Assembly (NCBI RefSeq): GCF_000219625.1
Contig: NC_018211.1
Location: 1,302,001 to 1,366,000, forward strand
From: Zymoseptoria tritici IPO323
Lineage: Eukaryota; Ascomycota; Dothideomycetes; Mycosphaerellales; Mycosphaerellaceae
Direction of reading: 5' to 3'
Length of the DNA: 64,000 bases
Positions within the stretch are counted from its first letter, which is position 1. Each line of letters starts with the position of its first letter. Positions 14,469 to 36,895 of the stretch are shown in pieces. The translations under genes and the position numbers were made by a program. Below the pieces are notes generated by a model. The model had not been told where the DNA came from and did not search any database. It saw nothing but the letters and a program-made list of their open reading frames with translations.

Positions 14469-14472
14469 AAGT

Positions 14473-14537
14473 GGCCAAGTCCGGAAGTTCGGAAATTCTG
14501 TTAGCGCAAAATCGCAAAATCGTATTAGCGCAAAATA
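14473..14537 (+). repeat. Left terminal inverted repeat
   Basis: Begins ggccaagtccggaagttcgg and contains gttagcgcaaaatcgcaaaa. It pairs in inverted orientation with 16355..16419. Confidence 0.9.
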
Positions 14538-14713
14538 CCTTCTCCTCTAAGAAATACCTACTTCGAAAGGCAGCCTCTTCCTATATAAGAGGCCGGCCTT
14601 CTACGACGTATTCTACTCTTTTATATGCTCTATAAGGCGTCGAATTATTCGCTATATAGATAGCTATCTTTCTTCGTTATTAATAAAGATATGCCTCGAG
14701 GGAGGTACGTTAT

Positions 14714-14795
14714 CGAAATCTCGAATCTCGAATCTTAAATCTCGAATCTTAAATCTCGAATCTCGAACTTCGAACTTCGAGCTTCGAGATTTAGA
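14714..14795. repeat. Short tandem repeat built on tcgaatct/taaatc
   Basis: Degenerate repeats of ctcgaatct, cttaaat and cgaacttcga. Internal to the element and probably of no coding value. Confidence 0.7.
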
Positions 14796-14835
14796 GTTTG
14801 CGACTAAGACTTTTGTCGATACTATAACTTTTGGT

Positions 14836-14866
14836 TGCACGTAGTGCAATATAAAGTTGTAGGTAG
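14836..14866 (-). repeat. Inverted partial copy of the tRNA-like segment
   Basis: Reads tgcacgtagtg, then a 6-nt spacer, then aaagttgtaggtag. The reverse complement of both blocks recurs at 16108..16133 with a shorter spacer. Confidence 0.7.
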
Positions 14867-15375
14867 TCAGCCAAAAACTAGTTTGGCCGCTACTCGCGTC
14901 TAATTAGTCGCTCAATTCTACAAGCGCCTTAGCGGCTTCCCTCGCGGAACGTCGACTTCGTCGCTTTAGCTACCTCTCTCTACTTAGATAACTAAGTAAC
15001 TACTTATTAGATAACAACGCTATTAATATAGTATAGACTATACGTTAGTAGAAGTCGGAATATGCTATTAAATCTAGCTATTTACCTATATAGTAGCTAA
15101 TATAGCTATAAAAGCCCTAAAAGCCCTAAGAAAGTATTTCTTAGTATAGGCGACTTAGTTCTTTTATATATAGTCTAGTATATAAGAGCGTACGTATTCT
15201 AGCCTTTAGATATATAACGTTCTACCTAGAATCTTTAACTATAGTTTAAAGTAAGAAAAGCGCTTAAACATAGATGTATTAAAGTAAGAGTATACTTTCT
15301 AGATTAGTAGCTAATAGTATAAGAGACTAAAAATATACTCTAATAGCGTTAAGTTTATAATAGAAGTTAATTAAT

Positions 15376-15780
15376 AAGTAAATAAATAGATTAACAAACC
15401 AACGGACTAACAGACTAATAGACTAATAAACTAATAGACTAACGTACAAACAGACTAACAAACTAATAAACTAACGAACTAATAGACTAATAAATTAATA
15501 AACTAACGCACTAATAGACTAATAGACTAATAAATTAATAGACTAATAAACTAATAGACTAATAAACTAACAGACTAACATATAAACAGACTAATAAACT
15601 AATAAACTAACAAACTAATAGACTAACATATAAACAGACTAATAAACTAATAAAATAACGAACTAATAAACTAACGAACTAATAAACTAACGAACTAATA
15701 AACTAACGAACTAATAAACTAATAGACTAACGTACTAATAGACTAACAGACTAATAAACTCATAAACTAGCGGACTAGTA
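15376..15780. repeat. Minisatellite of ~8-bp ACTAAYRR units
   Basis: Roughly 400 bp made almost only of actaataa, actaacga, actaatag and gactaaca-type units in changing order. There are no spacers of constant size, so it is not a CRISPR array. It lies inside the TIR element. Confidence 0.9.
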
Positions 15781-16080
15781 AAGCTTAATTAAAAAATATA
15801 ATATAGAATAAACTGCTAAAACAAAAATGTCTCGACCGGACGATTTACTAGGCACTCTCCTAAGAAAAGTACGCAATGCCTAATATCGACCGGCCGGGGC
15901 ATTACTACCCCTTACGCAAAGAAGCTACATAACCCTACTTCCGCATAGCGGTTCCCTAAATACTAAACAGAGCCTCTTATATTAAACCTAATCGAGACTA
16001 GGCTATAAGCGGGGTGAAGGGGTTAGCCAGCGAGTAAGAAGCCGAGAAATTTTGTCCGTATATATACCTTTAACCTTATA

Positions 16081-16152
16081 GCCTCGAGTAGCCGAGTAGT
16101 TAACGCGCTACCTACAACTTTACACTACGTGCAGCCTATTCGGATTCCAAAA
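16081..16152 (+). other. tRNA-like relic (possible SINE-type sequence)
   Basis: The stretch tagccgagtagttaacgcg matches an internal A box of the tRNA-Leu/Ser kind. About 40 bp later, attcggattcc resembles a mutated B box. The differences from consensus are mostly G to A or C to T. No closed acceptor stem is visible, so I do not call a functional tRNA gene. Confidence 0.35.
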
Positions 16153-16179
16153 TACGTATCTCCCTCGTAAGAATTCGAC

Positions 16180-16220
16180 ATAGCGAAAATGCGGGAAAAA
16201 AAAGGTCGCATTTTCGCTAT
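16180..16220. repeat. Perfect 14-bp hairpin
   Basis: atagcgaaaatgcg at 16180..16193 is the reverse complement of 16207..16220, with a 13-nt purine-rich loop. A palindrome inside the mobile element. Confidence 0.85.
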
Positions 16221-16354
16221 ATTGCGATAACTAAAATACGCAATATCGCTCGGTCCGGCATCTCTATATATTCTATCCTTACTTTATATAGCCCTTATGT
16301 AGCCTAGGGACATATATAGCTATTTAGAGATTTGCAAAACACGACACTTCGACA

Positions 16355-16419
16355 TATTTCGCGCTAATGCGATTTTGCGATTTTGCGCTAACGAGATTTC
16401 CGAACTTCCGGACTTGGCC
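16355..16419 (-). repeat. Right terminal inverted repeat
   Basis: Ends ...cgaacttccggacttggcc. Mirror of 14473..14537. Confidence 0.9.
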
Positions 16420-19373: not shown

Positions 19374-21269
19374 TCAACTCGAACCTCCTGCGCCACTTTG
19401 CTGCGCCGCCGCCGCCTGTTGCGCGCCCGCCATAATTGCGGCCTGATCTCCGCTAGGCCTCCCACCCTCTGGCCGCGCGCGACTGTTAAGAGCACACCGA
19501 TAATCGAAAGTTTTTGCCTCCGAGACGGGATAGTACTCCTCCATTTCGTCGTCACTGTCACTATCAGAAACGACGCCTCTACTCAGCGCGCCCCGAGGTC
19601 TTGGTCTTCGCGCTTCGAGATGGACACGACCGCCGCGTCCGTACCGCAGACGGCAAGATGGGTTGACGAGATCCTTACCGAACAGGCTGGGTTCGCCAAA
19701 ATATGTCTCCATGGATGAGGGAGGCGGCACGGAGAAGGTGAAGCGAAATTGTGCCTCTGCTTCGGAGTCTGCTTCTCCTTGCGGCTTTGAGTTGGCCATT
19801 TCGGTGTCGCCGTCTCGATCTTGCGAGGTCGGTGAAGGCAGGGAGGGAGGTGGTGATGGATAGCCGAAGCTGTCCGGGAAGAGCGGACTCCACTTCGGTC
19901 GTTTGTCCGCAGGGTCAGCCGGCGGAGTGAGAGGACCCCACGTCCCGTCATGCCATTGACTATTCCATCGCCGGTGCTGGAATTTCCGGTTCTCAATGGT
20001 CTGGTTGACCTGCGCCTCCGCCTCGGCTTGCAGGTCCGCCAGCGAGATAAGGTCGTTCTCCGGAGCAGATCTCTCACCCACCGAACGAAGCCGGATGGTC
20101 GCTGGACGCTGCGAGCTGCCATCTCCTCGACCCTTGGTCTTGGCAGTGGGCTTCAAGGACTTGTCAGTAAAAGGCACGCCAACAGGCAGGTATCATCAGA
20201 GGTAAGCTCACCTTTGTGTTGACGAGCAGCTCTTCGTCCTCTCCCTTTTCGCCAACGATGTTCTTCGTAACTTTGACCTCTTTGAGTTTACGACGCTCCT
20301 CAAACACTTTCCGACTGATTTCAAGATTCTGCTTGTTTAATTCCTCCCGACTTCGGACCAGGTCGACCAATTGCCGCGCTTGCTCCAGCTCGATGCGGAG
20401 TTTCTTCAGCTTCTCCACCACTTGCGCATCTCGACCTCTGGTCTTGCGGGTTTGACGGACCTCGCGACGTCGGAAGCATACATACGGATCTGCGTCATCG
20501 GCTTCGGATGTGGTGTCCAGCACGCGGACTTTGATGGTCGGCATGAGGGCACGGTTCCTCTTCCTTACAGCCCAATACTGGTATATCGGACGCTGAAACC
20601 TCTGCGCTTCTGGCGTGAGAGGTGTCTCGCGCGCTTGCTCGATCTCATCAAGCGTCAGTATCGGCACATTAGCGTCGACATTGGCAAACGGTTGCAGTCG
20701 TTGGCTGGTCTCCTCGAACGATTCGATGACCTCTTCGAAGACATCCTCGGAACACTGGTTGGACTTCTCCTTGAGCGGCTGCCCATTGACGTCCTTGCCG
20801 TCGTTGAGCTGGGAGAGGAACGCCTCGTCCTCTTCATTCATGCAATACGCCGTGCCAATGCTGTCCTCGACCGTCGAACTGAATCGAATGTACGAGTATG
20901 GCGAAGCGAAACCTTTGGGGTACAGCTCGTCATATTTGACGTCTCTCGCTTTGGTCGCATCGGGTGTCGGGATGAAACTCTGCTTCGTCTTCAAACCTGA
21001 CACACTCGCGTTGGCAGCGTTGATGACGGCTTGGAGATGGACTTCCTGTGAGGACATCAGTATTGTCGATGACTGGACCGATGGTAGGTGATGAGATGGA
21101 GACGACTTACCACTTCCTCGCCCTTCTCGACACCCGTGTCGAATTGGGGAATGAGCCGCTGCGCTTCATCTTCGAGAGTCTCTTCGATTTCATTCTCGCG
21201 GATTATGCGCAGCGGCTGCTTCGTGTTGAGCTTCCGTTGCCTGACATGTCGTGCATTCCGCGTGGACAT
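19374..21269 (-). CDS. EPL1: Enhancer-of-polycomb-like protein, NuA4 subunit
   Basis: Three exons: 21111..21269, 20212..21045 and 19374..20150 (introns 65 and 61 bp), 589 aa. The EPcA region begins VRQRKLNTKQPLRIIRENEIE, continues with HLQAVINAANA and YDELYPKGFASPYSYIRFSST, and includes the conserved block TPEAQRFQRPIYQYW and RNRALMPTIKVR. After it comes the helical stretch with KLRIELEQARQLVDLVRSRE. The third exon is low-complexity, with QRPATIRLRS and PPPADP-type segments and an acidic DSDSDDEMEEYYP. For intron 2 I chose the acceptor TTGAAG because the alternative four codons upstream lies too close to the branch CTGAC. Known: Epl1 holds the Esa1-Yng2 core of the NuA4/piccolo histone H4/H2A acetyltransferase. 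Nuclear. Confidence 0.93.
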
Positions 21270-21840
21270 GGCCGAAGCCTGCCCAGCTTAGTAATCAAGC
21301 AGGCCGCGGGCGCAAAGCCTGCAGAGAATTTTCTCAGTCGATGCGACGGAGCGTGGGGGTTGTCGAGCATCAGTGAGGTCGCGTTCGGATCGCAATATTC
21401 ATTCCGAGTGATGCGTCGTATTCGCTGGTGAGTAATTCACGTCGCATGTGCGTTTTGTGAATTTCTCGATGAATTTGTGGTCGTGATGATGGATATTGTG
21501 GGCGTGACTGTATGGCGAGTTCGGGCTTGTCGTCGAGACGCAAGGTGTTGTTTCCAAAGGCCAGCTTAGCGGCCTACCTCGGCCAATCACGCTTAGTTAG
21601 GGCTCGAAACGCGTGTGCTTGCCATGGAACCGACATCATCGTCGACCAAGCTTCAGCTTCACTTCTACTTGTACCGTCGATCTTTTGTCAACCACTTCTT
21701 TGGAACAGCCTGGAAATTGAGACGATTCACGTCACGCCGAACAAGAGAATGTCTAGCGACCATTCATTCACATTCGTGACTCTTACTACTTCATACCGCT
21801 AAGTTCTCAACAACAATCGCATGTGATAATACCGCAGCAA
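21270..21840 (-). other. Intergenic, promoter of EPL1
   Basis: No gene found. Small frames on both strands have no domain-like content. Confidence 0.4.
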
Positions 21841-22254
21841 TCATTCCTCCTTCTCTCCCATCTCGGGAAACATTCTCAGCAAAGTCTCAAATACCGCATC
21901 CGGCGCCACACTGAATCCCAACTTCGTCTTCGGCGACAACTCCCGACTCAGATTTACTACATCCTCGAACAGTTCCGTGAACTCTTTCTTCCCGCGAATG
22001 CCGAACCCAATCGTGAAACCATCGAAGTGTGTGCCGACCAGGAGCTCACGCAGCTCTTTCAAGCTGGTCGCGGGATCATTGGGGTTTAACTCCACTGCAG
22101 AGGGTTCGAAGCCGTGCTGACGTGCTTTTTCGAGGTTGGCCATGATGGATGCGCGGTTTGCTTGTGCGGAGCCGAATTGAGCGGCGTGGTCGGCGGCGAT
22201 GAAGCGTCCTAGGCCTGCGACGAGGACTCTTTTGGCTGCTGGGGTGGAAGACAT
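21841..22254 (-). CDS. Conserved fungal small protein of unknown function
   Basis: 137 aa, single exon, ATG at 22254. It begins KRVLVAGLGRF and continues with RASIMANLEKARQHGFEPSAVELNPNDPATSLKELRELL, then HFDGFTIGFGIRGKKEFTELFEDVV, SPKTKLGFSVAPD and an acidic tail. The alternation of strands and helices fits a small Rossmann-like or response-regulator-like fold (strand-loop-helix: VLVAGLG, VELNP, GFTIGFGIRG, LGFSVAP). This family is frequent in ascomycetes but, as far as I know, uncharacterised. No catalytic residues can be named. It looks cytosolic. Both ends are clean and no intron is needed. Confidence 0.7.
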   Translation of the reverse strand: MSSTPAAKRVLVAGLGRFIAADHAAQFGSAQANRASIMANLEKARQHGFEPSAVELNPNDPATSLKELRELLVGTHFDGFTIGFGIRGKKEFTELFEDVVNLSRELSPKTKLGFSVAPDAVFETLLRMFPEMGEKEE

Positions 22255-22810
22255 GTTTGTTGATGTGGTAGCGTTGTGAGGCTGCGGTGTTGAAACTTTG
22301 TGGTTTGCTGTTTGATGCTGAATGGAGAAGTGTTGCAGAGGAAGGACTTGATTTGTGACGTCTATCTGGGAGTAAGTATGTGCGATATCTGAGCTTTTAT
22401 CTATCTTCTCATGCGCATGATATGTGAGGCATATGCGAGATGCATTCGAGGTTCGGTTCCTTCAAAGCTGACAAAGCTCGGGTCTTTTGAGACCGTGTCG
22501 GCCGAGCATTGCTCCTTGGCCGACAGTTCCATCTCCACTACTGCGCATCTGCACTCCACAGCGAGACTGTCAATTGCTCCGGACGCTTACAAGTCAACAT
22601 GTTGCCATTTCCGGTGACTGCCAAAGCTGTACTTCCATCAAGTCATGATGCCGAAGGCTCGAAGAAGCAAGTACAGCCAAGCTGATGGAGGATCGCTGAC
22701 TGCGCGTCACCACAGCCGAGCTACCATCCACCAGCGTGAACAACAGTAAGTCCAGCAACCACTTCAACAGGTGAGAACACTCTCTTCCTCCTCCCTTCGC
22801 CCATCCCACG
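22255..22810. other. Divergent promoter region, no gene
   Basis: Lies between the small unknown gene (minus) and the DUF1295-type gene (plus). The last 60 bp before 22811 are C/A/T-rich as in fungal leaders. Confidence 0.4.
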
Positions 22811-23662
22811 ATGTCCTACACCACCACATCTCGCCGCCACGACTCAATCTCCCGCGGGAACTACACACCCAATCCCAGCGGCACAGCGACCTTCTTCCTC
22901 GGCCGCCTCGCCGACCCTTTCATCCAGTATGGATTTCTCGCGAAGAACTGGGGCAACCCGATCATCACGCGTCTAGGCGGCAAGAGCCTTCCCGCCGGCC
23001 CAGCTTGGATTACACATACGCCCTTTGACCGACTCGGACTCTCACCCTATCGGAGCATCATGTTCCTGATGTCGGTGGGAAGTGTATTGAAGCAGAACTA
23101 CCACCTGTCCGTGGTGATGCAAGAGCAAGTGTCCGTCGGGTTGGGGTTGCAAAATGCTGTGGGCAATGCATTCGGGAATGCGCTGAATTCAATCCTGTTT
23201 GTCTGCGCGCAGACGTCGGCGAGTGTGAATGGAGAACATTTCCCGCAGACGCCGTTGATTGTTGGCTCGGCGTTGTACGTGACTGGTATGGCCATCGAGG
23301 TAGTGTCGGAGCAACAGAGGTACTTGTGGAAGAAGAGGAGGGAGAACAAGGGAAAGGTGTATGGAGGTGGACTTTTCAGTCTGGCGAGGCACGTCAACTA
23401 CTTTGGTTTCGGGCTTTGGAGGGTGGGATATGCGCTTGCTGCGGGTGGGTGGTTGTGGAGTGCCATCACTGGTGCATTGGTGGCATATCAGTTTGGGAAG
23501 AACATTGTACCAGTGCACGAGCATTATCTGCAGGAAAAGGTAAGATGTTGGAGAGCTGTCTTCGCGTTTAATGTTTGGCTGACCTCGATATTGCAGTATG
23601 GCGAACAGTACAAGCACTACGAGCGAGCGACGCCGTGCAAGGTGGTGCCCTTCCTTTACTAG
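22811..23662 (+). CDS. DUF1295 / steroid 5-alpha-reductase-like membrane protein
   Basis: Exons 22811..23539 and 23597..23662 with a 57-bp intron (GTAAGA, GGCTGACC, TTGCAG), 264 aa. The intron is a multiple of three without a stop, so the unspliced frame is also open. Several hydrophobic helices are visible: SPYRSIMFLMSVGSVLKQ, FGNALNSILFVCAQTSAS, PLIVGSALYVTGMAIEVV and GYALAAGGWLWSAITGALVAYQF. The C-terminal family signature is present: KGKVYGGGLFSLARHVNYFGF, then the short last exon YGEQYKHYERATPCKVVPFLY. Members of this fold use NADPH at the R-H-x-N-Y-x-G motif (here RHVNYFGF) to reduce lipid double bonds. The substrate here is unknown. Confidence 0.85.
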   Translation: MSYTTTSRRHDSISRGNYTPNPSGTATFFLGRLADPFIQYGFLAKNWGNPIITRLGGKSLPAGPAWITHTPFDRLGLSPYRSIMFLMSVGSVLKQNYHLSVVMQEQVSVGLGLQNAVGNAFGNALNSILFVCAQTSASVNGEHFPQTPLIVGSALYVTGMAIEVVSEQQRYLWKKRRENKGKVYGGGLFSLARHVNYFGFGLWRVGYALAAGGWLWSAITGALVAYQFGKNIVPVHEHYLQEKVRCWRAVFAFNVWLTSILQYGEQYKHYERATPCKVVPFLY

Positions 23663-23873
23663 GAATGCATGTTCGGTATGGAGAGACGATCGTTGACCTA
23701 ATCCGAGCTATATGATGATGGGGTTTGACAATGCATGGGAAGATTGAGCGAGATACCCTGTTTGCTGTAATGGAGTCTGAGACGCCTGTCTGCCGATGGC
23801 TTGACATTCGGGACTAGTCTGTGTTCCATCTCCGCTAATGTTTCGTCTCCTGAAGTGATGTTCCGTAGACAAC

Positions 23874-25996
23874 CTACTCTAATCCCTTGATTCCGATGTC
23901 TTGCATTGCATTGCGGAGAATGGTCTCCTTGATCGCAGCAAAAATAACGCGCAAGGAAGTTACATCGTCGAGTTCCAGTAAGTGCGGATAAAGTGCGAGG
24001 CGGGCGCGGTTGAGCTGGTGGAATCTCCACAGAATGTACTTGGCGCCCCTGTTGAGGTCATCCCCTCCGTTGTAGTCGGGAAAGTACTGCTTGAGAGGCG
24101 AGTGTGCCATCTTGGCCCTGAACGATCCAGCATTGCCCAGCAGCAGTATCACCGAGGCTCTCATGAACCATCGCGAATTGACTACACTGTCGAAGAAGAC
24201 CAGAGGTTCCATGAGACCATTTGCTGTGTCAAGCCACGGCACATCATACCGCGAGAGGTCAACGCAGAAAATGATGCTCGTGACGTGCTCGAACATGGCG
24301 AGTACGTTCTTCCGCTCGCGGTTCTCTTGCTTCACACGGGTAAGGTTGACCGATAGAGCACCCATCTGAATCTTCACTTCGTTCATACTGCTTCGTACCT
24401 TGAGCACGTCTTCTCCCGAGGGTTTGTACGTAGACATGCATATTCGATCCGCCTTCTGGAGGAAGCTGTAGAGAATTAGCAGTAGAATATTGCGCAGTCG
24501 ATAGTCAGTCCGAGCCGGCCACCAGCGAATCAGAGCCACTTACTATGATGCATAGTGTGGCATAAAGAGATCTTGTCGACAGTCGGCATATTCTGTCCAG
24601 AGCCAAGTCACAGCCAATCCGAAGTCCGCGTTCAGGGGTATTGCAGGATCTGGGTCGACCGCGCAAGACAGTATCGCCTCGATTCTGCGGCGGGAAATTT
24701 CCCCTGCTGGCGACTCGGACTCCATTGCAGCATGCTCGGACTCCATTGCGGCATGTGCAATCGCCTTTGCATATTGTACTAGCGTTCGGTACACAATTTG
24801 TCGGTAGATAAGCAGCTCTGTTGCAGTGTATTGTTTCTCTCCAGGATCGTAAAGAAGCAGTAGATGCTCGAGGAGGACATCGATATCGTGGTCAGAAGTG
24901 CCTATCAAGAGTACATCGCACTGCCGACGCAGGCGCTTGGCGTCCGCCTCTAGACCCTGGTCTATTCTTCGAGATTTTGTGTGTGACTCTTTATCACCCC
25001 TCGATGTCCGCGGAATTCGTACTTCTGAGGTCTGGCTTGCATGACCGTGGGCGGTCGAATCCGAAGGTCCAACTGGGAAGCTGGACACACCCGAATCATC
25101 AGGCTGTTCTGTGGTGTCTTGCTGAATTTGCGTGGTTTGCTTAGAAGACGACGGGTTCGTGACTGTGGCTCTCGTGTCAACGGCGCGAAGTTGCGGAGCG
25201 CTTCCCTTCTGAGCCCTCGCATTCTCCTTGACAGACTGTCTGATGAATCTGTCGTAGACGTCCGTAAACCACATTACCTTGTCGAAGGTGAAAATGGTCG
25301 AAAATTTGGACTTGGAACTCAAACCTGTCATGCGAGAGCGGTTCGAAGATCTGTCGTCTCGATGCACAATGAGGGACGCTGTGTCTTTTTCCAGCCGTGT
25401 CATGAGCTTGCGGGTCGATTTCGACTTCAGTATATTCTCTTTCTGTGACGCTGTTGTGCTGCAGCTATGTGAGCTGCGCTGTCAAACGATATGATAGCAA
25501 GTACCGACCAGCTGAATACCGTCAGATGCAGGTTCAAGGCAGTGATTTGACCCTCAATCATCCTTTGCAATTCATCCGATCTTGGAGACGTACTCGCTTG
25601 TGAGGATGGCTGTTGTTCCAGCTGTACGTCGATTTGAGTTATCAATAGCCGGCTGAGTGTCAAAGACTTGTCCAGCCCCATCTTCAGCAAATAGTGCTCA
25701 TCGTCCAGATCGGACTCTAGCCACTCGTGCAGCTTCGTGAGTGCCGTTCTCCAGGTCTCCAGAAGTGTTTCGAAATGCAATGTTCCGATATCAATAGAAG
25801 TCCCGCCGCCTGCATGGCTCTCATGGACTTTGCCCAACGTAGTGCCCAGAATGTCGAGAATGTTGGCAACCGTGCCTGTCGTGTTGACAATTGTGATGGA
25901 ACCCTGGGCATAGTAGTCGCCGTTGTAGACCTGAGCGTTATCGTTAGCGACGATATCTTTGTAGCTGTGGCCAGTTGGCGCTAGACTTCGGTCCAT
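23874..25996 (-). CDS. HRAM amyloid motif + fungal N-terminal domain + degenerate G-alpha-like protein
   Basis: Three exons: 25509..25996, 24544..25458 and 23874..24465 (introns 50 and 78 bp), 664 aa; the phases close exactly. An N-terminal repeat at residues 11-29 (SYKDIVANDN..., with Asn-25, Gly-26 and Tyr-29) resembles the HET-s amyloid pseudorepeat. A helical region follows to about residue 200, with RLEKDTASLIVHRD, a type often seen at the front of fungal NLR and G-alpha-like proteins. From about 340 the chain aligns to heterotrimeric G-alpha: CDVLLIGTSDHDID replaces the P-loop, YFLQKADRICMSTYKPSGEDVL is kept, FEHVTSIIFCVDLSRYD and SVVNSRWFMRASVILLL are kept, but the NKxD site reads LGNAGS. 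GTP binding is therefore unlikely. It is divergent with the HeLo gene at 26315. Start at 25996 (AGAC-ATG-G) chosen over 26083 for context. Confidence 0.82.
24714..24755. repeat. Two 21-bp tandem repeats inside the G-alpha-like gene
   Basis: ctcggactccattgc(a/g)gcatg occurs twice back to back. On the coding strand it encodes H-A-A-M-E-S-E twice, in the all-helical insertion region. In-frame, so harmless to the reading frame. Confidence 0.85.
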
Positions 25997-26314
25997 GTCT
26001 TGCGAAGCTAGGATGGCGGGACGAGGAGTCTCCAATTGTAGGACAACTACTGGCCGTCCGTCGTGCTCCGTGAAATGTAGCACATCGCATGCGCTGAGCC
26101 CGAGGATCTCAGCCTCGCTACTCCACCCAGTCAGCCTCGCGATGCATGGCCCACATCTAGCCGCAGCTCATGGACTCGAGGCAATGCACTGCGCCGAGCT
26201 GCGTCGAGCTGCGCTAAGAATAGTATAGATGGTGCCAGATCGTATATTAGGTGAGTCGACCCACGGCTGGTTCATCGATTGCTGGCGGTGGAAGTACCAC
26301 GTTCCTTTTGAGCC
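25997..26314. promoter_or_regulatory. Shared divergent promoter of the amyloid-motif gene pair
   Basis: 318 bp between the two start codons. AT-rich bits (aagaatagtatagatg, gtatattagg near 26217-26250) could be TATA elements. A short direct repeat, cgagctgcg, occurs twice just upstream. The layout would allow joint regulation. Confidence 0.5.
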
Positions 26315-27292
26315 ATGAGTGGTCTTACTGCATTGAGCGCACCTGGGCTCTTCTTGACGGGCGTTCGGTACTTTGAACTCATTCAACTCGGGCGCAACTT
26401 CCAGGACGACTTTGGCATATGCGTTTTGCAGCTACGCCACGTACAGCGGCGCTTCTACCGATGGGGCGAGTCTGTCGGCATTACCGACCAGGAGTCACCA
26501 GCCTACCGATTGGCGACCCATGATCGCTCTGATGATCTTGATCTCGTGGATGAGACTTTGGAGGCTATTGTCGAGCAGCTGAGCCGAGCACAAAAGGATG
26601 CAGCTGGGTATGCTAGACGGCTTACAAAGACTTCGCTTGGCAACGCGGTCGAGGAGCTTGACATCCTGGATGAAGACGCGCAGCTTGCATCAGACACCTC
26701 AATCGGTTCCCGCAGTGCAACTAGACTGCGCAACAGCAGAGTGGGCAAAGCGTATCGCAGGTCGCTGCATTTTGGAGATGTACTGACCGGTCGGACTCAA
26801 TGGGCACTCTACAAGAAGACAGAATTCTCCGATCTGCTTACCAAAATTACGAACCTCCTCAATGAGCTCGAGAAAGCCTTGCCTGGAAAGCTCGAGGATG
26901 TCGCAAGGGTTGACGCCCAACAACTTCTCGTCGACGAGGATGGCGTCGAGGCACCAGCCGAGGAAGTTGGGACGATTATCGATGTTTCTGTGAATACAGA
27001 TCCTGTCTTCTCAGCTGCTCTGAACTCGATAACTGCCAAACATGGCCACGTCTTTGAAAGCATGATCTACAAGGGCTATGCGCGGGCACACAATGGCGAC
27101 AACTATGCTACGATTCCTATTGGCGGTGTCGCATCGTCCGGCACTTACAGGAAGATTGTAGCTGGCGGCAATTCTCGAACCCATCTTGGAAACAACTACG
27201 GTTATGCTCAGCAGTCTTCAGTTCTGTTGCAAGAGGATCGTTCTGCTAAAAATTCCGGTTCCAGGAATTCAATTCCACCAGCAGAAGGATAA
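26315..27292 (+). CDS. HET-S-like HeLo-domain protein with two C-terminal HRAM amyloid repeats
   Basis: 325 aa, one exon. The ATG at 26315 is preceded by an in-frame TGA two codons upstream, so the start is firm. Residues 1 to about 200 follow the HeLo fold: a short hydrophobic N-terminus (SGLTALSAPGLFLTGV), then YFELIQLGRNFQDDFG, RFYRWGESVGITD, QWALYKKTEF and LLNELEKALP. A flexible stretch follows. Two 19-residue pseudorepeats lie at 246-264 and 277-295, each with Gly at position 16 and Tyr at position 19; the second also has S-R and L-G-N-N-Y. Known: in Podospora HET-S, amyloid templating of such repeats refolds HeLo, exposes the N-terminal helix and makes a membrane pore that kills the cell. 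Whether this one is an active HET-S type or an inert HET-s type cannot be told. Confidence 0.9.
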   Translation: MSGLTALSAPGLFLTGVRYFELIQLGRNFQDDFGICVLQLRHVQRRFYRWGESVGITDQESPAYRLATHDRSDDLDLVDETLEAIVEQLSRAQKDAAGYARRLTKTSLGNAVEELDILDEDAQLASDTSIGSRSATRLRNSRVGKAYRRSLHFGDVLTGRTQWALYKKTEFSDLLTKITNLLNELEKALPGKLEDVARVDAQQLLVDEDGVEAPAEEVGTIIDVSVNTDPVFSAALNSITAKHGHVFESMIYKGYARAHNGDNYATIPIGGVASSGTYRKIVAGGNSRTHLGNNYGYAQQSSVLLQEDRSAKNSGSRNSIPPAEG

Positions 27293-28203
27293 GCCGACGA
27301 CCTGTATCACGGAGCTTTCTGATGGTTGACACTCTGTCATAGTCTGGCCCTGGCCAAAAGGTGGCTGCTTTTCACCAGATGAAGGCCGAATTCGTGTCAG
27401 CTCCAATCGGCTACCTTCGTAGATCGGAGTGTTTCGGTCAATCCGAACGGAACGAAGTGCAAGTTGTGTTGTGTATCATTCAACTACTGCAGGCAATACA
27501 TGCCTTTACGATGGACATTCAACGCTGTATCCCCGCCACAGTCCTCTCTCCATCGCAACTACCTTACTAAGATTCTGCTTCGTACAACATTCGTATAGCG
27601 TAACGTCATTGGTCCAGCAATTCACCTCTCGGCAAACGGAAGCTTTGCATCCCCGCGACGAAGCTTGTCGTCACTCTATAGACACACCAGCGACTCCAGT
27701 TTTATTCATCTTCGAGCCAACCACACACAATCGTCCTTCAACAGCAGATCCTTTTTTCTCCACGGTCGAGCACTCTTGTGGAGAAAAAGATGGGGCGAAA
27801 GGGAAAGAGGCAAGCAACCCTGCACGGAGGAACTTCCTCTTCCTCTTCGTCGTGGTTGCTTGGCTTGCTTTGCTTCGGCCTCGGACTCCACAACGGCGAC
27901 CTGCCCTTCTAGGTACGCTTCTTTCGACTAGACTCGACCGAGCGAGGGAAGGATTGGGCTACCGTGTGTTCACTATTATTGTGCACCCGCTCTCAACTAG
28001 GCGAGCCGGTCTTATAAGCACACGCGAGCAGCAGCATCCTGCTGATGTCGTCGATGGTTTGAGACCCTCTCTTTCTCGCTTTACTTCACTTCATCTTACT
28101 CTCCATCTTCTTCTTGTGTGCGTCACGAGCCATCAGCTTCCAAAGGTTGCCTCCCGTCATCAGAAGAACGACTTCACACTGCACACAACACAACATTGCG
28201 AAC
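27293..28203 (+). other. Intergenic, long pyrimidine-rich promoter of the DUF3712 gene
   Basis: No convincing gene. CT-rich runs (for example 28063-28120, containing tctctctttctcgctttac) precede the ATG at 28204, as in strongly expressed fungal genes. Confidence 0.4.
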
Positions 28204-29373
28204 ATGGCTATAAAGGCAGCATCAAGCGACGAGACGCTGGAGAAGGGGCCCTCCAACATCAGCAGCAAGCCGACGAAAGGTCAGAAGGCCAGAGCGCATT
28301 GTGGAAAGTGGTGGTGGATTTATCTGATTGCTTTCGTCATTGTGGTGCTCGTGGTTGTCTTACCAGTGTTTGTCTCACAATCCTCACCCCACTTCACGAA
28401 AGCCACAATGTCTGACAACAATCTCACAGCATCTACGTTGGATACCCAAATATCGCTCGCGACGGTGTTGCAGACTCGAAGCTGGTCCCGACCTCAGAAT
28501 CCTTCCTGAACCCATCGCCAGATTCTTTTGACCTTGAACTGGACACTGTTCTCCTTTCGGACTCGAAGTTTCACCCTACATTGAAACCGTTCAACGGCTC
28601 CCTCTACTTGGATGGCGGCGAGACACCGTTCGCCTTCATTGATGTCCCACAAATCAAGGCTAAGAACGGAACCGTAGCGCATATTGCGCAGAGAGTCACG
28701 ATTCCGGATCAAACTCAATTTCAGAACTTTTGTATCACAGCGCTGAGCAGCGAGACGTACACGTTGAGATTGAGAGGAAAGGGCGATTTGAAGCAAGGGT
28801 CGTTGCAGACGATTAGTGTCAACTATGATCAGCCTGTGCAGTCGAAGGGTGAGTTCTCCCAACACCTCCCTCTATCACATTTGCAAACTCTGACAATGAA
28901 TTGCGACAGGTCTGAACGGATTCAAGGGATTGGAAATCACCTCCTTCTTCCTCCAGACCGACAACAGCACCGTCTCCGCTGGTGTCAATTCCAACGGTAC
29001 AGTCATGATTCCCAACCCTTCCGTCTTGACACTCGCAGTTGGAGATGCAAGTTTCGATATTTCCGTCAACGGTACCAAGATCGCAAACTCGACGATTCCG
29101 GATTTGACGCTCACGCCTGGTAACAACACCTATCCGATCAATGTTCTCAGCGATGTCCCTGCTGTAACGACACTGCTTGGCAACCCAGCTTATCAATGTG
29201 GCATGCTGCCTGTGGATATCACCGGCGTGGAGAGTGTGTACAACGGAGAGGTCCTGCCCTACTTTACCGCGGCACTGAGGCATAACTCGGTGCGGAGTAT
29301 GCTGAATATCGTGCCGGCGCTGCAGAAGCAGGGCTTGGAAGCTTTGATTGAGGGCAAGGAGTGTACTTTGTAA
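28204..29373 (+). CDS. DUF3712-type single-pass membrane protein
   Basis: Three exons: 28204..28367, 28430..28848 and 28910..29373 (introns 62 and 61 bp, both with CTGAC branches), 348 aa. About 35 hydrophilic residues precede one strong membrane helix (WWWIYLIAFVIVVLVVVLPV). The first splice joins it to IYVGYPNIARDGV, the usual start of the large outer domain. The domain then shows SFNPTP-like SPDSFDLELDTVLLSDSKFHPTL, FIDVPQ, and VPAVTTLLGN with LEALIEGKECTL at the end. Several N-x-S/T sites (NGSLY, NGTVA, NNTYP, NSTIP) fit a lumenal or extracellular domain. The family is common in filamentous fungi. The role is not known to me, and a lipid-transfer or cell-surface function is only speculation. 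Confidence 0.82.
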
Positions 29374-29954
29374 TCAGGAAAGCTGGGTCGAGGACAAACA
29401 GAATTGAGTCGCTGCCGCGACTGATAGATGGGATGAGGTTCCCATGGATGGTCCTGATGGAATGATGTTAATACCCCGTCGCATGTATGAGAGAAGAGAG
29501 CGTGTATAGTTTACGGTCAATTTAGTGAAAGTCTACGCGATGGTCCTCGAGTGGATCTGCAATTTTTCTTGTAAGTCAAAACAATGAGAGCTACTTTCTA
29601 CAAAGACCATTACCCGCACTTTCGCCCAACGGACCCGCTGTGTGTCCTCGACAGATGCACATCGTGATCTGACTGCGTAGTGGTCGAGCTATTTACAGCG
29701 ATGAAAAGCTCATGGCTGAGCAATGCTGCGGTGGTTGACTGTATCATTGTTGCTGCCGAAGCTGATTCACCTAGTGCGAAAGGGTCGTTACGATCGGGGA
29801 ATCTTCGGCTTTCCGTTTGGCTGGAAGCTTTTTGAACCTTGGATCGCGAACAAGATATTTTCGAACAACCGCTCTGAAGCACGCTGTGCCCTACAATCTC
29901 GATCAAATTTCCAGCTGAGCGCACTGTTGCTGTGTGCAAGTGGGCTTCGCGACA
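29374..29954. other. Intergenic, no gene seen
   Basis: 3' region of the DUF3712 gene and promoter of the homoserine kinase fusion. No supported coding sequence. Confidence 0.4.
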
Positions 29955-32196
29955 ATGGCGACCACTATAAGTATAATAGCCGCTATTCATACTCTGGATG
30001 TCCTCGTTCGCTAACAATGTCCAGGAGTGCCATGCTCTTCAGCAAATATCGGTAGGCTTCGCACAAGACCAGACCGAGGACGTCTGCTGATATCACAAAG
30101 GTCCTGGATTCGATGTTATTGGTCTTGCCCTTTCCGTTTGGCTCGAACTGAAGATTACCTTCGGCGATGAGCAATCCTCCGGACAACCATACAACTGTCG
30201 AGTCACATACGAGGGTCTCGGAAAAGATGGCGTCGACTTATCACCGGACCGCAATTTGATCACGCAGACTGCTCTTTATGTCCTTCGATGCCACGGCCAG
30301 AGGTCCTTCCCACCAAACACACATGTGCACATCATCAACCCCATTCCTCTGGGCAGAGGTCTCGGCTCTTCTGGTGCGGCAGTCGTTGCTGGTGTTGCGC
30401 TTGGAAGTGAAGCTGGGAAGCTAGGACTATCCAAAGACCGCATTTTAGACTTCTGCCTGATGATCGAACGCCATCCCGACAATGTCGCAGCGGCTCTCTA
30501 CGGCGGCTTCGTCGGCAGCTATCTCAAGGAGCTCAACCCAGAGGACATGAAGCGCAAGGAGATCCCCCTCGCCGAAGTTCTTCCCGCGCCGCAGGGTGGA
30601 GAGGACACCGGTCTGCAACCACCAATCCCACCGCTCAACATCGGAAAGCACATTCGTTTCCCATGGGCCAAGGAGATCAAGTGCATTGCCATCATTCCAG
30701 ACTTTGAAGTCGCCACGGCGAAAGCTCGAAGTGTTCTCCCTACCACGTACGAGAAAGCGGATGTCATCTACAACCTTCAAAGGGTGGCATTGTTGACGAC
30801 AGCACTTGGCCAGAGCCCGCCGAACGCCGAGATGATCTATGATGGAATGCAAGACAAAGTCCACCAGCCATATCGCAAGACTCTAATTCCAGGTCTGACT
30901 GAGATCCTACACTCTGTCACACCCGAGTCGCATCCTGGACTACTCGGCATCTGTCTTTCCGGAGCAGGTCCTACAATCTTAGCGCTCGCGACCCAGAACT
31001 TCGATGACATCGCGAACCACATTGTTGAGCAATTCAAGAAGGAGAACATCACATGCCAGTGGAAGCTACTTGAGCCCGCCTACGATGGTCTCACTGTCTC
31101 TCAAGACGCTTCGTCCAAGACACAAGACAAGACCGCCATGACCTACGCCGACGCGGGTGTCTCCATCGACGCCGGCAACCAGCTCGTCAAGTCCATCAAA
31201 GCTGCAGTAGCATCGACCCGCCGACCAGGTGCCGACGCCGAGATTGGCGGCTTCGGTGGTGCCCTCGACTTGGCCGCCGCAGGCTACAAAGAAGCGCCGA
31301 CTCTCATACAAGCCATCGATGGCATCGGCACGAAACTCAAGATCGCCTTTGCCATGAATGACTTCTCCACAGTCGGCATCGATCTCGTAGCAATGAACGT
31401 CAACGACCTCGTTGTGCAAGGCGCCGAACCGCTCACTTTCATGGACTACTACGCCTGCTCAACCCTCAACATTCCGGATGCCGTTTCCTTCGTCGAAGGT
31501 GTCGCCCGAGGATGCGTGGAAGCCGGCTGTGCGCTGGTCGGAGGCGAGACCGCAGAAATGCCAGGCATGTACCAAGACAACGAATTCGATGCCGGTGGAG
31601 CCGCAACGGGCGCCATCAAGCGCGGCCAAAAGATCCTCCCCGACAAAGCCTCCATGAAAGAAGGCGACGTCCTCCTCGGGCTTTCTAGCAACGGCGTACA
31701 CTCCAATGGCTTCTCTCTTGTGCGCAAAGTCATCGAGCGACAAGGTCTCAGCTTCACGGACGATGCACCCTGGGATAGCGGAAAGTCGGTCGGTCAGAGT
31801 CTCCTCACGCCGACGCGGATTTACGTCAAACCCCTCCTCGCGGCAGTCCAGAAAGATCTCCTGCTTGGAATGGCGCACATCACGGGTGGAGGATTGGAAG
31901 ACAACATCCCGCGCATGCTGCCCAAACATCTCGCGGCGGAAGTCGACGCTTCGACGTGGGAGGTGCCGAAGGTTCTGCTATGGCTGAAGCAGGCGGGTAA
32001 TGTGAGCAGTCGGGAGTTTGCGCGGACGTGGAATACTGGGTTGGGAATGGTGATTGTTGTCAAGGAGGAGTTGGCGGAGGATGCGACGAAGGTATTGCAA
32101 GACGCTGGGGAGAAGGTCAGTCGGGTGGGCAGACTGGTCAGGAAGACGGACGAGGAAGTGATTTTGAGAAATTTTGAGCATTGGAATAGATCGTAG
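29955..32196 (+). CDS. THR1: Homoserine kinase fused to phosphoribosylaminoimidazole (AIR) synthase domain
   Basis: Three exons: 29955..29970, 30025..30051 and 30101..32196 (introns 54 and 49 bp), 712 aa. Splicing builds MATTIRVPCSSANIGPGFDVIG, the GHMP-kinase start. ATP loop PLGRGLGSSGAAVVAG and the C-terminal GICLSGAGPTILAL complete a full homoserine kinase (residues 1 to about 348), the step from homoserine to O-phosphohomoserine in threonine synthesis. A short linker of about 12 residues (SQDASSKTQDKT) leads straight into MTYADAGVSIDAGNQLV at 361, a full PurM domain with STRRPGADAEIGGFGG, DGIGTKLKIA, VNDLVVQGAEPLTFMDYY, GGETAEMPGMY and HITGGGLEDNIPR. PurM closes the imidazole ring in purine synthesis. 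No stop, splice site or start signal separates the two parts. Fungal AIRS is usually fused to GARS (Ade5,7) instead. Confidence 0.93.
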
Positions 32197-33531
32197 AGTA
32201 CGTTGCGAGAGGATGGGGGAGGGTCCTTGTTCGGAATCAAAAGGCGTTCATCCGGTGCGCGATTGATATTTGCAGGGGAGCGTTCGCAGAAAGCTGACGA
32301 TGTCTGTGCGGAAGCTCCTCCTCAGTAGTGACAAGCAGGTTAAGACAAGCATACTGTCCTGCATTCCAGTCTTGGTTATCGGGCACCCGTGAATCTAGAG
32401 GCAATGCTGCACCTCTTCCTGATCACGTCTTCGCTCCAGCATCATCAAACCACAACACCAGATCTCTTATTGATGTGCGGAGGTTGTCATTCGTCGCCTC
32501 GAAATTCGGCTCCAGCCCTCAAATGTCCAGCCAGGGTGTGCGGTGTTTTCAAATCTCCAACATCAAACGCAGCCGGGATTAACTGGCACACCGGTTTTAT
32601 AGCTCAGGCACGCTTCGGCATCCGAGCGCCAAATGGAATTGGATCAATGAATGCATGGTCCCTTGGAGATCATCGACTGCGCAATGCCATCGGCAGGCCC
32701 GGGCCTGGGAAATCCACAAGGATTGAAGATCAGCAGCCACCGGGGTCACAACAGTCGAGATGTGGCTTTTGTTGCGCGGGTCGGAATCGAGCGTGATCAG
32801 TTGGTGGACAGCATTGATACCGAGCGTTCTGTCCGATCTGGTGAGAGCTGAAGTATACGTTACTGCGGGTATGAGTTGCAAACTGCGCCGCCAGGAAGAT
32901 GCAACACGAGGCGGACAACAGCCGAGTTCTCGTCGCGTGGAGAGTGGGCCAGGGATCGATCGACGACTCCTCCTCGTCCTCGCACATGGCAGGGCTGTCC
33001 TGGTCCAGGCGAGAACGCCCATCTGGGGAAGGGGAGGAAAGGAAGTATCGAGTGAGTGTCAGAGTGTTGGTGTGGCAGGTCACCTTCCTTCCTTCATCAC
33101 ACCACCTGCACCCAAGAATATTGCTGACATCTACAGAGCTTTCTCTTTTCTTCATCTCTTGCCCGTTCGTCCACTTGCAGGTCCAACCGTTCCTTCTTCC
33201 CCACTCTTCCGTCTGGCTTTTGCTACTCCACACCGACCCTGAAAGGCTGGACCACCTACATCACTCGCCATAATTTTCCACTTACGGCGGCAGGACGAGG
33301 ACTGCACGCACACTCAACCGCTCGAGTATCTGTACGTCCGCAGTGTGCTCCTCGTTCCTCACCACCGCGACATCTCTACCGCGATCCTGCACTTGCACTT
33401 GACCGCCTCGCACCGATGAGGCGATGAGCCTCGCCCGCCATCTCTGCCAAAAGTTCTCGGATCTGGACTCGAGCTCAAGAGCAACCTCACGCATGTCATA
33501 ACCTCACTGCGTCCACCATCTCGCCGCCGCC
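32197..33531. other. 1.3-kb interval without a recognisable gene
   Basis: Several overlapping open frames of 60-167 codons run on both strands without domain-like sequence. The last 350 bp are pyrimidine-rich and look like the leader of the membrane-protein gene at 33532. Confidence 0.4.
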
Positions 33532-34784
33532 ATGACTCTCGATGTCTCCAAGCCAGCCACTGTGGATGGGGTCATGATTGAGGCATGGGCGCAGGGTTTT
33601 ATGTGCGGGAGTTTGATCGTCATGGCTTGCGTTGCCATCGCGAATATGCGAAAACGTACGCTACTGCACAAATTGATTGTCATTGAGGTGGGTGGTGGCA
33701 TGCGATGTTGAGCTGCGGGCTGTACTGACGAGGAATACAGCTGCTGTTTGGAACCTTTCATGGCACATTTATCTTTACCAGTATGCGATCCACATGCGTG
33801 TCTACCGATGTTGAAAGACTGACTCGGGCTTTACAGATCCACCTGTCTACAATTGGTATTTGAGGTGAGACAGTCTCACGCGAATGACCACAGACTCGAG
33901 TACTGACGGAACTTCCAGCGTGACGGCAATATTCCTCAACATCAGCTGGTCTTTGCACAACCTGATCGCCTGGATAAAGAACAAGCCGTGAGGGAACTCT
34001 GCAACCATGATCGTCAACACGAGCTGACTCGGAGCAGATTCTTGGGCAAGAAAGCGAGTAGGTTCTACATCGGCACCGTGATCCTGGTGCAGCCATACTG
34101 GGTCTTGGAGATCACCGCGAACTTCGTGAGTAGACTCGGCACCACTCTGCGAGAGAAACACCCATCTAACGCCAACCTCAGCTCTACTTCAGCGGCAGAA
34201 GCGACCTGTTCCGCTACACCCGCCCGTACGAAGCCCTCTTCCGCGATCCATGGTGGATCTTCACAACCGTGAACCTCCTATGGAACATCAAATCTCGATA
34301 CGAATTCGGCTATGGAGAGCTCATCCGAGTATCTCCTCGATTTGGCATCATGCTCGGCGCCATGCTTATGAGTCTCGCGTTCATCATCGTCGATATCCTC
34401 GCCGTTACTCGCGTGATTCCCACCTCCGGCCTACCCAACGGCATCAATCCATTCTGGAAACTGGCGTTTGTCTTTAAATGCTTGTCGGACACCATGGTCC
34501 TGGACGACTTCAAGACTGCGCTGGATCGCCTGAAACAGTACAAGATGGAGCGAATGGGTAGTGTTTTGAGCGATGGATTGAGAGGAGAGTTTGTCGATGT
34601 GGAGGCGGCGAGGAAGCAGAAGGCGGAGGGTCAACTGCAGCCGCTGCCGGTGGACTCTGTCCATGTCAGGGACTGGTCCTGTCCTATTAAGGGTAGCGAC
34701 GCCGAGTTCCTTGATTTGGAGTCGGCTTTGAGGATAGGTCCCGGGCCGAGGGGAGAGTCTTCTGGATCTAGTGCGCCCGGTTGA
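33532..34784 (+). CDS. Multi-exon fungal integral membrane protein, seven-helix type
   Basis: Six exons: 33532..33687, 33741..33780, 33837..33864, 33919..33987, 34038..34125 and 34182..34784, with introns of 50-56 bp whose phases all close; 327 aa. Hydrophobic segments appear in order: GFMCGSLIVMACVAIANM, LLFGTFHGTFIFT, YLSVTAIFLNISWSLHNLI, FYIGTVILVQPYWVLEITANF, WWIFTTVNLLWNI, GIMLGAMLMSLAFIIVDILAV and PFWKLAFVFKCLSD. The C-terminal 90 residues are hydrophilic. The pattern matches the widespread uncharacterised fungal integral-membrane family with a conserved YGELI-x-VSPRFG loop after helix five. Without the five short introns no long frame exists, so the gene is easily missed by ORF scanning. 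Function unknown. Confidence 0.8.
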
Positions 34785-35465
34785 AAGAGCAGCGAGGTCG
34801 ACGGTTATACTTTCGCTTGAAGGAAAAGTCGATCCAGAAAGAAGAAGACTTGTAGATCTCATGCGAGACGACGGTCGTTCGGCCGTGCAGGAGTCCTTCT
34901 TCTGGAAGAAAATGATGCTCAGTGCAAGGGGATGCCCACACCAAGACTCGACAGCCGCAGCGCTGCAGGCTCAGTTCGGCAGGGCCCATGATGCGGAGAA
35001 ACACGTCTGAGGGCGGGTCGCAGCTGATGGATTCGAGAGACACGGGAAGAAATGTACAGTATGCCAGTGAACATGGAGGATGAGTAAAAGATGAGGGACG
35101 AGGAGGAGAAAGAGGAACCATCGTTACGAGCAACGATCATGAATGAGTGTATATGTAGCTGCACGAACACTCGCTGCTGCTGAAACATGCAACACAACCA
35201 TCAGGAACCTTCATATGTGCGAGTGCATAAGATCAGGCATCGTTCTTCATCTATCTCGTGTCTGTCAGTCCCACCAATTTCTTGCGATGCTCAAGCTATC
35301 GCTGCTCGCTTTTAAGCTGTTCTACACCTCAACTTCACCTTGAACTCAGCGAACGTCAACCCATCGACCTGCACACAAACACGCTCCTCGTTTCCGGATC
35401 TCCACCCATGGATCTTACCCTACAGACTCTCCGATAACCAGAACGCCGTCATCGCCCTCCCCACA
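34785..35465. other. Intergenic, no gene seen
   Basis: Contains the 3' end region of the membrane-protein gene and the C/A-rich leader of TRS33. No gene supported. Confidence 0.4.
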
Positions 35466-36487
35466 ATGTCCACTAAACCCCTCCCCAACCCCGAAACCGA
35501 CGACCTCCTCTCCAACCCCAAAGTCAACGCCTCATGTCTCGACTTCCTCCTCATCGAACTGGTCCCTCTGGCCCAACGTATCACCGACCAATTACACGCC
35601 CGCGAACAAGCGCTCATAGACGACTTTCGACGGAGTAAGATTTTCAACGGGAGCAAAGCACACGATGCGTCTATATCTACGTCTACAACAGAAGGAGCAC
35701 GAGCAGCGGGCACGAAACCAGGCTCGACACAGACTGCTACAGGACCGGTGATTACGGTGACGGATAATACTTCGAGCGTGGGAAGGGATGAGGAGGCGGG
35801 GAGTATTGGAGCGGCGTCGTTGGGACAGGTACCGAGTGCGTTGGACGATGAGACGAGGGAGGCGATGTTTTGGAGGTTGGATGGGTTGGGATATCGAGTT
35901 GGGCAGGGACTGGTTGAACGGTAGGTGCTATGTGCGGGCTATGATAACGTTGGAGGGACGAAGTCATGCCAAAATGAATAGAGCAGAAGGCAGAGCTGGA
36001 AGCCGACACGACATGTCACGATCAATACAATGACCACAATGCTGACCACGCACCTCTTGAATCAGATTCTCCATCAACAAACCCCGCCCGACCACACCCC
36101 TCGACGCGATCAAGTTCATCTGCAAAGACCTCTGGCTCCTCATCTTCCGCAAACAAATCGACAACCTGAAGACCAACCATCGAGGAGTCTTCGTGCTGAC
36201 GGATAATCGGTTTCAGCCGCTAAGTCGAATGTCAGTGGATCGGAGAGCGGGACCGAAAGCGGCGGAGGATGCGTTGAGGAGGGCGCAGACGGTGAGTTTC
36301 CTACACTTCTCTTTGGCTGGGGTGTGTTTTGTCTGACGAGTGCGGTGTGATGCAGTATCTCTACTTCCCATGCGGTATAATACGAGGTGCGCTGCAAGGA
36401 TTAGGAATGGATGTCACGATTTCGGCGGAGACTACAGAAATTCCGGCGGCGATATTTCAGATCAAGGCCAAGAGCTCCAAATCATGA
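35466..36487 (+). CDS. TRS33: TRAPP complex subunit Trs33 (TRAPPC6)
   Basis: Three exons: 35466..35920, 36066..36291 and 36356..36487 (introns 145 and 64 bp), 270 aa. Start PNPETDDLLSNPKVNASCLDFLLIELVPLAQRI, then a low-complexity insert rich in Ser/Thr/Gly. The core FWRLDGLGYRVGQGLVERFS spans the first intron, followed by KFICKDLWLLIFRKQIDNLKTNHRGVFVLTDN and, across intron 2, FPCGIIRGALQGLGMDVTISAETTEIPAAIFQIK. These are the strands and helices of the alpha-beta plait TRAPP fold. Known: Trs33 is a core subunit of TRAPPII/III, the Rab1/Rab11 exchange complexes of the Golgi and autophagy. The first intron is longer than most in this window. An in-frame ATG upstream at 35340 was not used because the added residues are leader-like. 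Confidence 0.93.
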
Positions 36488-36895
36488 CCTTTGCACCTCA
36501 GATGACGAAGAACCACGAACGACGATGTGACGAGGACCGATTTGAAATGCAACAACTTCCGACGAAGTTGCAGAGCATACTCAGCTCGCGGATGCCGATT
36601 GGCAACATTGAGGGACTCAGAATGCTTGGTATCTCCAGCGACCCATGGACTGCAAGCAAAAGGAAACGCAACGGAAGTCAAGAAGATGGCTTTTGTATTC
36701 CGGGCTATGCTCCTCGAAGTGTTCCGCCCGTCCTATCGAACGATCGGCTCGTATCATCATATCCAAACCATACGAGGCAGACGAACTAGATCTACCTGAA
36801 GTCTAAGACCTTGCTCATCATCTACCTGGAGCGAGCAGTTAGCACCAGAGCTTGTGCTGCATCTTACAATTCGATGTTCGAACGACCGGGAAAAC
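36488..36895. other. Convergent 3' regions of TRS33 and malate dehydrogenase
   Basis: No gene seen between the two stop codons. Confidence 0.4.

Follow-up and report, generated by a model that had tools for sequence, protein, structure and literature searches.

A candidate amyloid-signaling gene pair in Zymoseptoria tritici with a degenerate G-alpha protein in the place of the NLR

Amyloid signaling to HeLo pore-formers has so far been described with NOD-like receptors (NLRs). In Podospora anserina, NWD2 activates HET-S through templating by its N-terminal motif, and HeLo is a cell-death domain (PMC4518210). Adjacency of the two partner genes is common but not systematic (98/155; PMC4518210), and the 2015 survey of such pairs covered HeLo-related proteins of under 310 amino acids only and sought neighboring NLRs (PMC4518210). 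The pair of divergent genes considered here lies in a 64-kb stretch of the genome of Z. tritici IPO323 (C8:1302001-1366000, referred to as the window; the genome searched has 39,686,251 bases in 21 contigs). It would have escaped that survey because its HeLo protein has 325 amino acids and its neighbor is not an NLR. The neighbor is instead a G-alpha-like protein with an N-terminal copy of the HET-s-related amyloid motif (HRAM) that the HeLo protein carries twice at its C-terminus. The sequence, the gene structure, the kinship of the motifs, the breakdown of the GTPase motifs, and the intactness of the left gene in other strains were observed directly.

A HeLo gene and its neighbor with matching repeats

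An earlier note on this DNA had described divergent genes at 23874-27292 with 19-residue repeats at residues 11-29 of the left protein and 246-264 and 277-295 of the right protein. Both genes and repeats were found there in the sequence, and all three repeats share G16 and Y19, with an aromatic residue at position 2 (Y, F, and Y). In published HRAM numbering the motif is a 21-mer with the glycine as G19, and the repeats are designated here r0 (left) and r1 and r2 (right; Table 1).

As had been claimed, the product of the right gene combines a HeLo domain with a pair of HRAMs at its C-terminus. PF14479 matched residues 5-198 with an E value of 1.4e-26 (94 bits; cut-off, 23.2), and the solved HET-s HeLo structure 2wvn matched with an E value of 2e-11. 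The structure model of the right protein was poor (mean predicted local distance difference test [pLDDT], 40.6) and was not used. A search with the right protein returned four relatives: a Z. tritici cluster (4 sequences, 98%; P0004), P0005 (46%), P0006 from Rachicladosporium, and P0007 from Cryoendolithus. Double C-terminal repeats are present in all four, and the HeLo repeats thus occur outside Z. tritici too (P0005, P0006, and P0007). The 10-residue loop between r1 and r2 is inside the published range of 6 to 18.

The match between the repeats of the two genes is far beyond chance. The score of r0 against r1 plus r2 was 67 BLOSUM62 units; of all 72,470 stop-free 21-mers in the six frames of the window, none besides r0, r1, and r2 scored at least 61. 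None of 49,901 21-mers from 120 other proteins reached 67 (the best, at 64, were the HRAMs of the homologue P0005), and 1 of 200,000 shuffles of r0 did. A profile of eight repeats from four HeLo proteins, with r0 left out, matched residues 9-30 of P0001, the public model of the left protein from strain ST99CH_1A5, at 9.0 bits, which 0 of 3000 shuffles of P0001 equaled. With this HeLo-repeat profile, r0 scored 9.0 to 10.0 bits among 124 proteins, where the next match, HeLo repeats aside, had 0.6 bits. Over 5641 partly redundant open reading frame segments, r0 ranked next to r1 and r2 at 10.7 to 11.1 bits, and the next score was 4.9. Pairwise scores in Z. tritici were 36 for r0 versus r1, 31 for r0 versus r2, and 28 for r1 versus r2; r0 is therefore nearer to r1 and r2 than these are to each other, which fits a concerted change of the partners.

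The repeats also have features expected of HRAMs. G19 is present in 9/9 repeats, and 4 or 5 of the five core positions (5, 8, 10, 16, and 18) are hydrophobic in each, alanine counted. Position 6, at which r1 and r2 have opposite charges, is among the positions of the inter-repeat salt bridges of HET-s (6, 11, and 13; PMC4518210). Most NLR HRAMs sit at positions 5 to 9 (PMC9815663), and r0 begins at residue 8 or 9 of the left protein. When the isolated double repeats of the window, P0005, P0006, and P0007 were compared with Pfam at E values up to 10, solely HET-s models matched: PF11558 had E values of 0.12, 0.09, 0.0013, and 0.19, respectively, and PF17108 had 0.021 for the window. PF11558 is reached by just 38/155 published HRAM pairs (PMC4518210). 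A PF11558 search of the Z. tritici genome was empty, as was that of every control genome, and is hence uninformative. Searches of the repeat profiles against PDB sequences gave no HET-s match (zero matches for one profile, two weak unrelated ones for the other, and two weak unrelated ones for r0 alone).

Two further HeLo loci were seen elsewhere in the genome. One, on C12 (L024, 3409-4734), encodes a second HeLo protein in a 441-amino-acid frame, in which the HeLo-repeat profile finds nothing; in the other, on C2 (L025, 3064-4152), a HeLo N-terminus continues in one frame into repeats that by eye look like ankyrin.

The degenerate G-alpha domain of the left protein

The left frame requires two introns (25459-25508 and 24466-24543) to give a protein of 664 amino acids, the same length as P0001, with 97% identity. 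The gene is intact in three other Z. tritici strains, two of which have a protein of 657 amino acids. The protein begins with r0 (residues 8-28), followed by a helical domain (39-190), a linker (191-339) of low model confidence that is probably disordered, and the G-alpha fold. The HRAM and the dead G-alpha of this anatomy had been recognized in the earlier note, which missed the helical domain between them, shared with the tagless protein P0020. The helical domain forms helices in the P0001 model (block pLDDT, about 36 to 70; whole left model modest, 58.7). That it is HeLo-like was considered and rejected, as profile comparison with a HeLo alignment gave nothing significant, and profile comparison with the middle part of P0045, a protein discussed below, likewise gave nothing significant.

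The claim of a degenerate G-alpha proved correct. PF00503 matched residues 323-650 of P0001 with an E value of 1.9e-50 (172 bits; cut-off, 48.8) and two exons of the window with E values of 9.4e-7 and 2.2e-38. No other Pfam family matched the left protein significantly; no NACHT, NB-ARC, or WD match and no oligomerization domain was recognized in the Pfam scan. There was also no NACHT or NB-ARC match inside the 64-kb window, this genome's matches being all elsewhere. A G-alpha does occupy the seat of the NLR, as had been proposed. All 50 Foldseek hits shown for the left model were structures of G-alphas or of receptors in complex with G proteins; the best E value was 7.5e-18, and the template modeling scores by target were about 0.53 to 0.60.

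In an alignment with 14 other G-alpha rows, all five nucleotide motifs (P-loop, switch I, switch II, NKxD, and the TCAT-type motif) were off consensus in the window and in P0001 to P0003, with single consensus letters persisting, such as the switch I arginine. Clear departures in at least one motif were also present in four of these other rows (P0013, P0016, P0020, and P0045). We infer from the motifs that the left G-alpha domain is without nucleotide binding or GTP hydrolysis. The alpha-N helix is well preserved (IDQGLEADAKRLRRQC versus IDRGLEEDSKKLRREC). The switch II stretch RKKWIHCFE is RKNVLAMFE in the left protein, and the C-terminus is altered and extended (GIKGLE versus GIL). The switch II and C-terminal surfaces of G-alpha contact G-beta and receptors, and because both are changed, ordinary coupling to G-beta or receptors is disfavored.

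The outside matches listed for residues 465-664 (the best 120 of 256) were G-alphas with about 45 to 54% identity, several of them named alpha-3. A gene on C10 of the same genome, which we take to be a group III G-alpha, had 64% identity over left residues 548-632. An alpha-3-type G-alpha is the likely source of the left fold.

Conservation and degenerate relatives

In the three other Z. tritici strains, r0 is identical or differs by D27N. Compared with these strains, the window had 0 to 1 differences in 40 residues of the r0 part and 1 to 5 in 342 of the G-alpha part, a 7-residue indel not counted. With so few differences between strains, the degenerate domain looks maintained rather than decaying. 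The window and P0001 differ at 20 residues, 17 of which are within 202-319, in the linker. For strain ST99CH_1E4, the left protein (P0002) and the right protein (P0004) are each listed on a contig of 2,208,392 bp; within Z. tritici, the left tag is thus kept together with the right gene, as the earlier note had expected.

Two features of allelic variation were also seen. Twelve of the 20 residues that set the window apart from ST99CH_1A5 are crowded into 202-250, as in a recombined or fast-evolving segment. A tandem duplication of the 7 residues HAAMESE, at about residues 398-411, is present in the window and ST99CH_1A5 and single in the two other strains.

A search with the full-length left protein returned only three Z. 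tritici strains. This search drew its words from residues 1-500, scored 8000 candidates, and missed P0020, so its silence is no evidence against tagged relatives. Viral contigs gave 31 pattern matches, none of them confirmed. In a comparison of 121 proteins, P0020 (588 amino acids) matched the helical domain with an E value of 1.6e-32. The match starts at residue 3 of P0020, which makes r0 an extra N-terminal segment by comparison, provided that the start of P0020, from a 1919-bp contig, is complete.

A segment before the G-alpha domain provides a second link. Six of 124 proteins have the strict pattern FxF[DE]x[ED]: three are from Z. tritici strains, and the others are P0020, P0016 (Sarocladium), and P0045. 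The window allele fails it at residue 224, with V versus E in the other strains. Of 120 G-alpha-type proteins, seven have no [NT]KxD, namely, the six carriers and P0118; the pattern was written post hoc, counts only through this coincidence with motif loss, and has three of its six carriers in one species. In a tree of G-alphas that included the C10 gene, the left protein, P0016, P0020, P0045, and P0013 formed one clade (97/95). The placement of the left protein is unsure (branch length, 2.33), and the clade member P0013 retains NKxD and DVGGQ.

In P0045 (1046 amino acids), a patatin domain (E value, 4.6e-25) and a weak PigL_N match under the cut-off (3.2e-5) precede the degenerate G-alpha. 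No match to the HeLo-repeat profile was found in P0020, P0045, or P0016. Like the left protein, all three have the pre-G-alpha pattern and lack [NT]KxD, and P0020 also has the helical domain; they differ from it in having no HRAM match and, in P0045, in having patatin in front. Patatin is an NLR-style front end. P0045, with patatin and G-alpha, and P0020, with the helical domain and G-alpha, hint at a wider pseudo-G-alpha family. Patatin is listed among the figure-legend abbreviations in PMC12881547.

Table 1. Features of the divergent pair in window coordinates
Feature	Residues	Position	Strand	Basis or remark
Left gene, 664 aa		23874..25996 (exons 25509-25996, 24544-25458, 23874-24465)	-	Splice model; length as P0001, 97% identity
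r0, lone N-terminal HRAM of left protein	8-28	25913..25975	-	DNA checked
Helical domain, left protein	39-190	25377..25882 (intron 1 inside span)	-	Homology to P0020; helices in P0001 model
Pre-G-alpha segment FxFDx....VY	219-231	25254..25292	-	
Pseudo-G-alpha domain	323-664	23877..24980 (intron 2 inside)	-	PF00503, Foldseek, degenerate G motifs
Degenerate P-loop GTSDHDIDV (consensus GxGESGKST)		24876..24902	-	
Common upstream region, 318 bp		25997..26314	.	Between start codons
Right gene, HeLo protein, one open frame, 325 aa		26315..27292	+	
HeLo domain	5-198	26327..26908	+	PF14479
r1, first C-terminal HRAM	243-263	27041..27103	+	DNA checked
r2, second C-terminal HRAM, 10-residue loop from r1	274-294	27134..27196	+	DNA checked

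A Pfam scan of 20 of the 27 other long frames of the window gave a match at an E value of ≤0.01 in 15, all of metabolic, housekeeping, or unknown kinds (EPL1, SET, USP7, Brix, DUF3712, and others). In one frame (30091-32193, + strand), the N and C domains of a GHMP kinase precede both AIRS domains, a fusion that looks unusual. An AT-rich island with GC as low as 0.23 lies at 14600-16400; the TpA/ApT ratio was 1.75 at 14200-16000 versus 0.51 at 20000-40000, as expected for a repeat mutated by repeat-induced point mutation.

Proposed mechanism, alternatives, and comparison with known systems

The two genes probably form an amyloid-signaling cell-death module in which a pseudo-G-alpha protein takes the place of the NLR, a reading that we hold with moderate confidence. 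Templating of r1 and r2 by r0 is suggested because the layout is the same as that of NWD2/HET-S; for a probably nucleotide-free G-alpha at work in immunity, plant XLG2 offers a precedent (PMC8584482). In the resting cell, r0 would be unfolded. A trigger, in which the pseudo-G-alpha is bound or modified by a usual G-alpha contact or oligomerizes otherwise, would gather copies of r0, which could then fold into a HET-s-type beta-solenoid. This solenoid would template r1 and r2 of the adjacent HeLo protein, freeing the HeLo N-terminal helix to permeabilize the membrane and kill the cell. As to what is sensed, our guess is that the left protein stands guard over an alpha-3-type G-alpha or serves as its decoy.

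Several observations weigh against such a module. We know of no NACHT-like oligomerizing step for a pseudo-G-alpha, and the tagged left gene was seen in Z. tritici alone. As for the assignment of the repeats to HRAM families in the earlier note, G19, the hydrophobic core, and the double-repeat layout held up, whereas none of the double repeats matches PF11558 or PF17108 above the curated cut-off, and r0 by itself has no Pfam match at E values up to 10 with filters on. Both r0 and r1 have N at position 18, which is usually hydrophobic. The R or K preferred at position 15, a tendency and not a rule, is present in three of nine repeats, including r1 and r2 and not r0. The r0 motif has 4 charged residues in 21, compared with 4 in r1 and 3 in r2; since it is no less charged, self-stacking would set like charges at positions 6, 7, 12, and 20. 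NLR r0 motifs tend to carry less charge (PMC4518210).

Alternatively, the HeLo protein might serve an NLR elsewhere in the genome, with r0 as a captured tag of little function. NACHT and NB-ARC matches are indeed present elsewhere in the genome, and partners are not always adjacent (98/155; PMC4518210). However, tblastn of r0 or r1-r2 over the genome found this locus only, although such short queries are insensitive and provide weak evidence of uniqueness; the HeLo-repeat profile scored at most 4.9 bits in 16 NLR-type loci with 1.5-kb flanks (10/37 NACHT and 6/7 NB-ARC); and r0 is retained in 4/4 strains. It seems unlikely that r0 is such a captured tag.

It is slightly less probable still that the left protein acts as an inhibitor or a buffer, with r0 capping or sequestering the prion-forming tail of the HeLo protein and the pseudo-G-alpha controlling release, as in a toxin-antidote pair. 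The divergent arrangement with a short common upstream region would suit this role, as would the absence of a recognized oligomerization domain from the left protein and a charge of r0 as high as that of r1 and r2, unexpected for a self-stacking nucleator. In the studied system, however, a single N-terminal HRAM next door belongs to an activator (PMC4518210 and PMC4344463).

The preserved alpha-N helix could also indicate that the left protein is a sink or scaffold for G-beta-gamma in heterotrimeric signaling, with the tags serving reversible assembly and no cell death. This is improbable, given the altered switch II and the changed and extended C-terminus, whose contact roles are given above, and the function of HeLo as a cell-death domain (PMC4518210). 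That the left N-terminus resembles the HeLo repeats by chance, as the short motif and the lack of a Pfam match for isolated r0 might allow, is very improbable in view of the shuffles (0/3000 by profile and 1/200,000 by BLOSUM62 score) and of the profile scores of r0 (10.7 to 11.1 versus 4.9 bits over the 5641 segments and 9.0 to 10.0 versus 0.6 bits among the 124 proteins).

If the two genes do form an amyloid-signaling module, receptor type and amyloid output would be separable modules, and G-protein biology would be linked to fungal immunity and allorecognition: a dead G-protein, not the usual immune receptor, may switch on fungal cell death. More tentatively, there may be another class of intracellular receptors in fungi: behind NLR-style front ends (HRAM tag, helical domain, or patatin lipase), a catalytically dead G-alpha of the alpha-3 type would stand in for the nucleotide-binding and oligomerization domain of the NLR. 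Such receptors may be decoys for foreign factors that attack G-alpha/cAMP signaling, and the Z. tritici locus would be their amyloid-coupled example. The pair also suggests that surveys restricted to NLRs and short HeLo proteins overlook receptors. The r0 and r1-r2 motifs are a simple testable pair. In the literature as screened by title and the start of the abstract, with most subscription papers and supplements outside its scope, no description was found of a G-alpha that bears an HRAM or adjoins a HeLo gene, and the G-protein and GTPase terms tried had zero matches in the main text of PMC4518210, PMC9815663, PMC12261475, PMC4986451, PMC7889193, and PMC12881547.

Among described systems, NWD2/HET-S of P. 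anserina and the HRAM1-5 NLR/HeLo pairs are similar to the Z. tritici pair in having adjacent genes, a double C-terminal HRAM on the HeLo protein, one N-terminal HRAM on the partner, and motifs that are alike in both genes. They differ in that their partner is an NLR rather than a G-alpha, and the HeLo protein here has 325 amino acids. An ordinary fungal alpha-3-type G-alpha has its fold in common with the left protein and none of its five degenerate motifs, fused N-terminal parts, and changed, extended C-terminus. To our knowledge, plant XLG proteins have no amyloid motif or paired pore-former. Plant XLG2, from a different kingdom and of different origin, resembles the left protein in combining a large N-terminal part with a G-alpha-like domain, and it works in immunity, probably nucleotide-free (PMC8584482).

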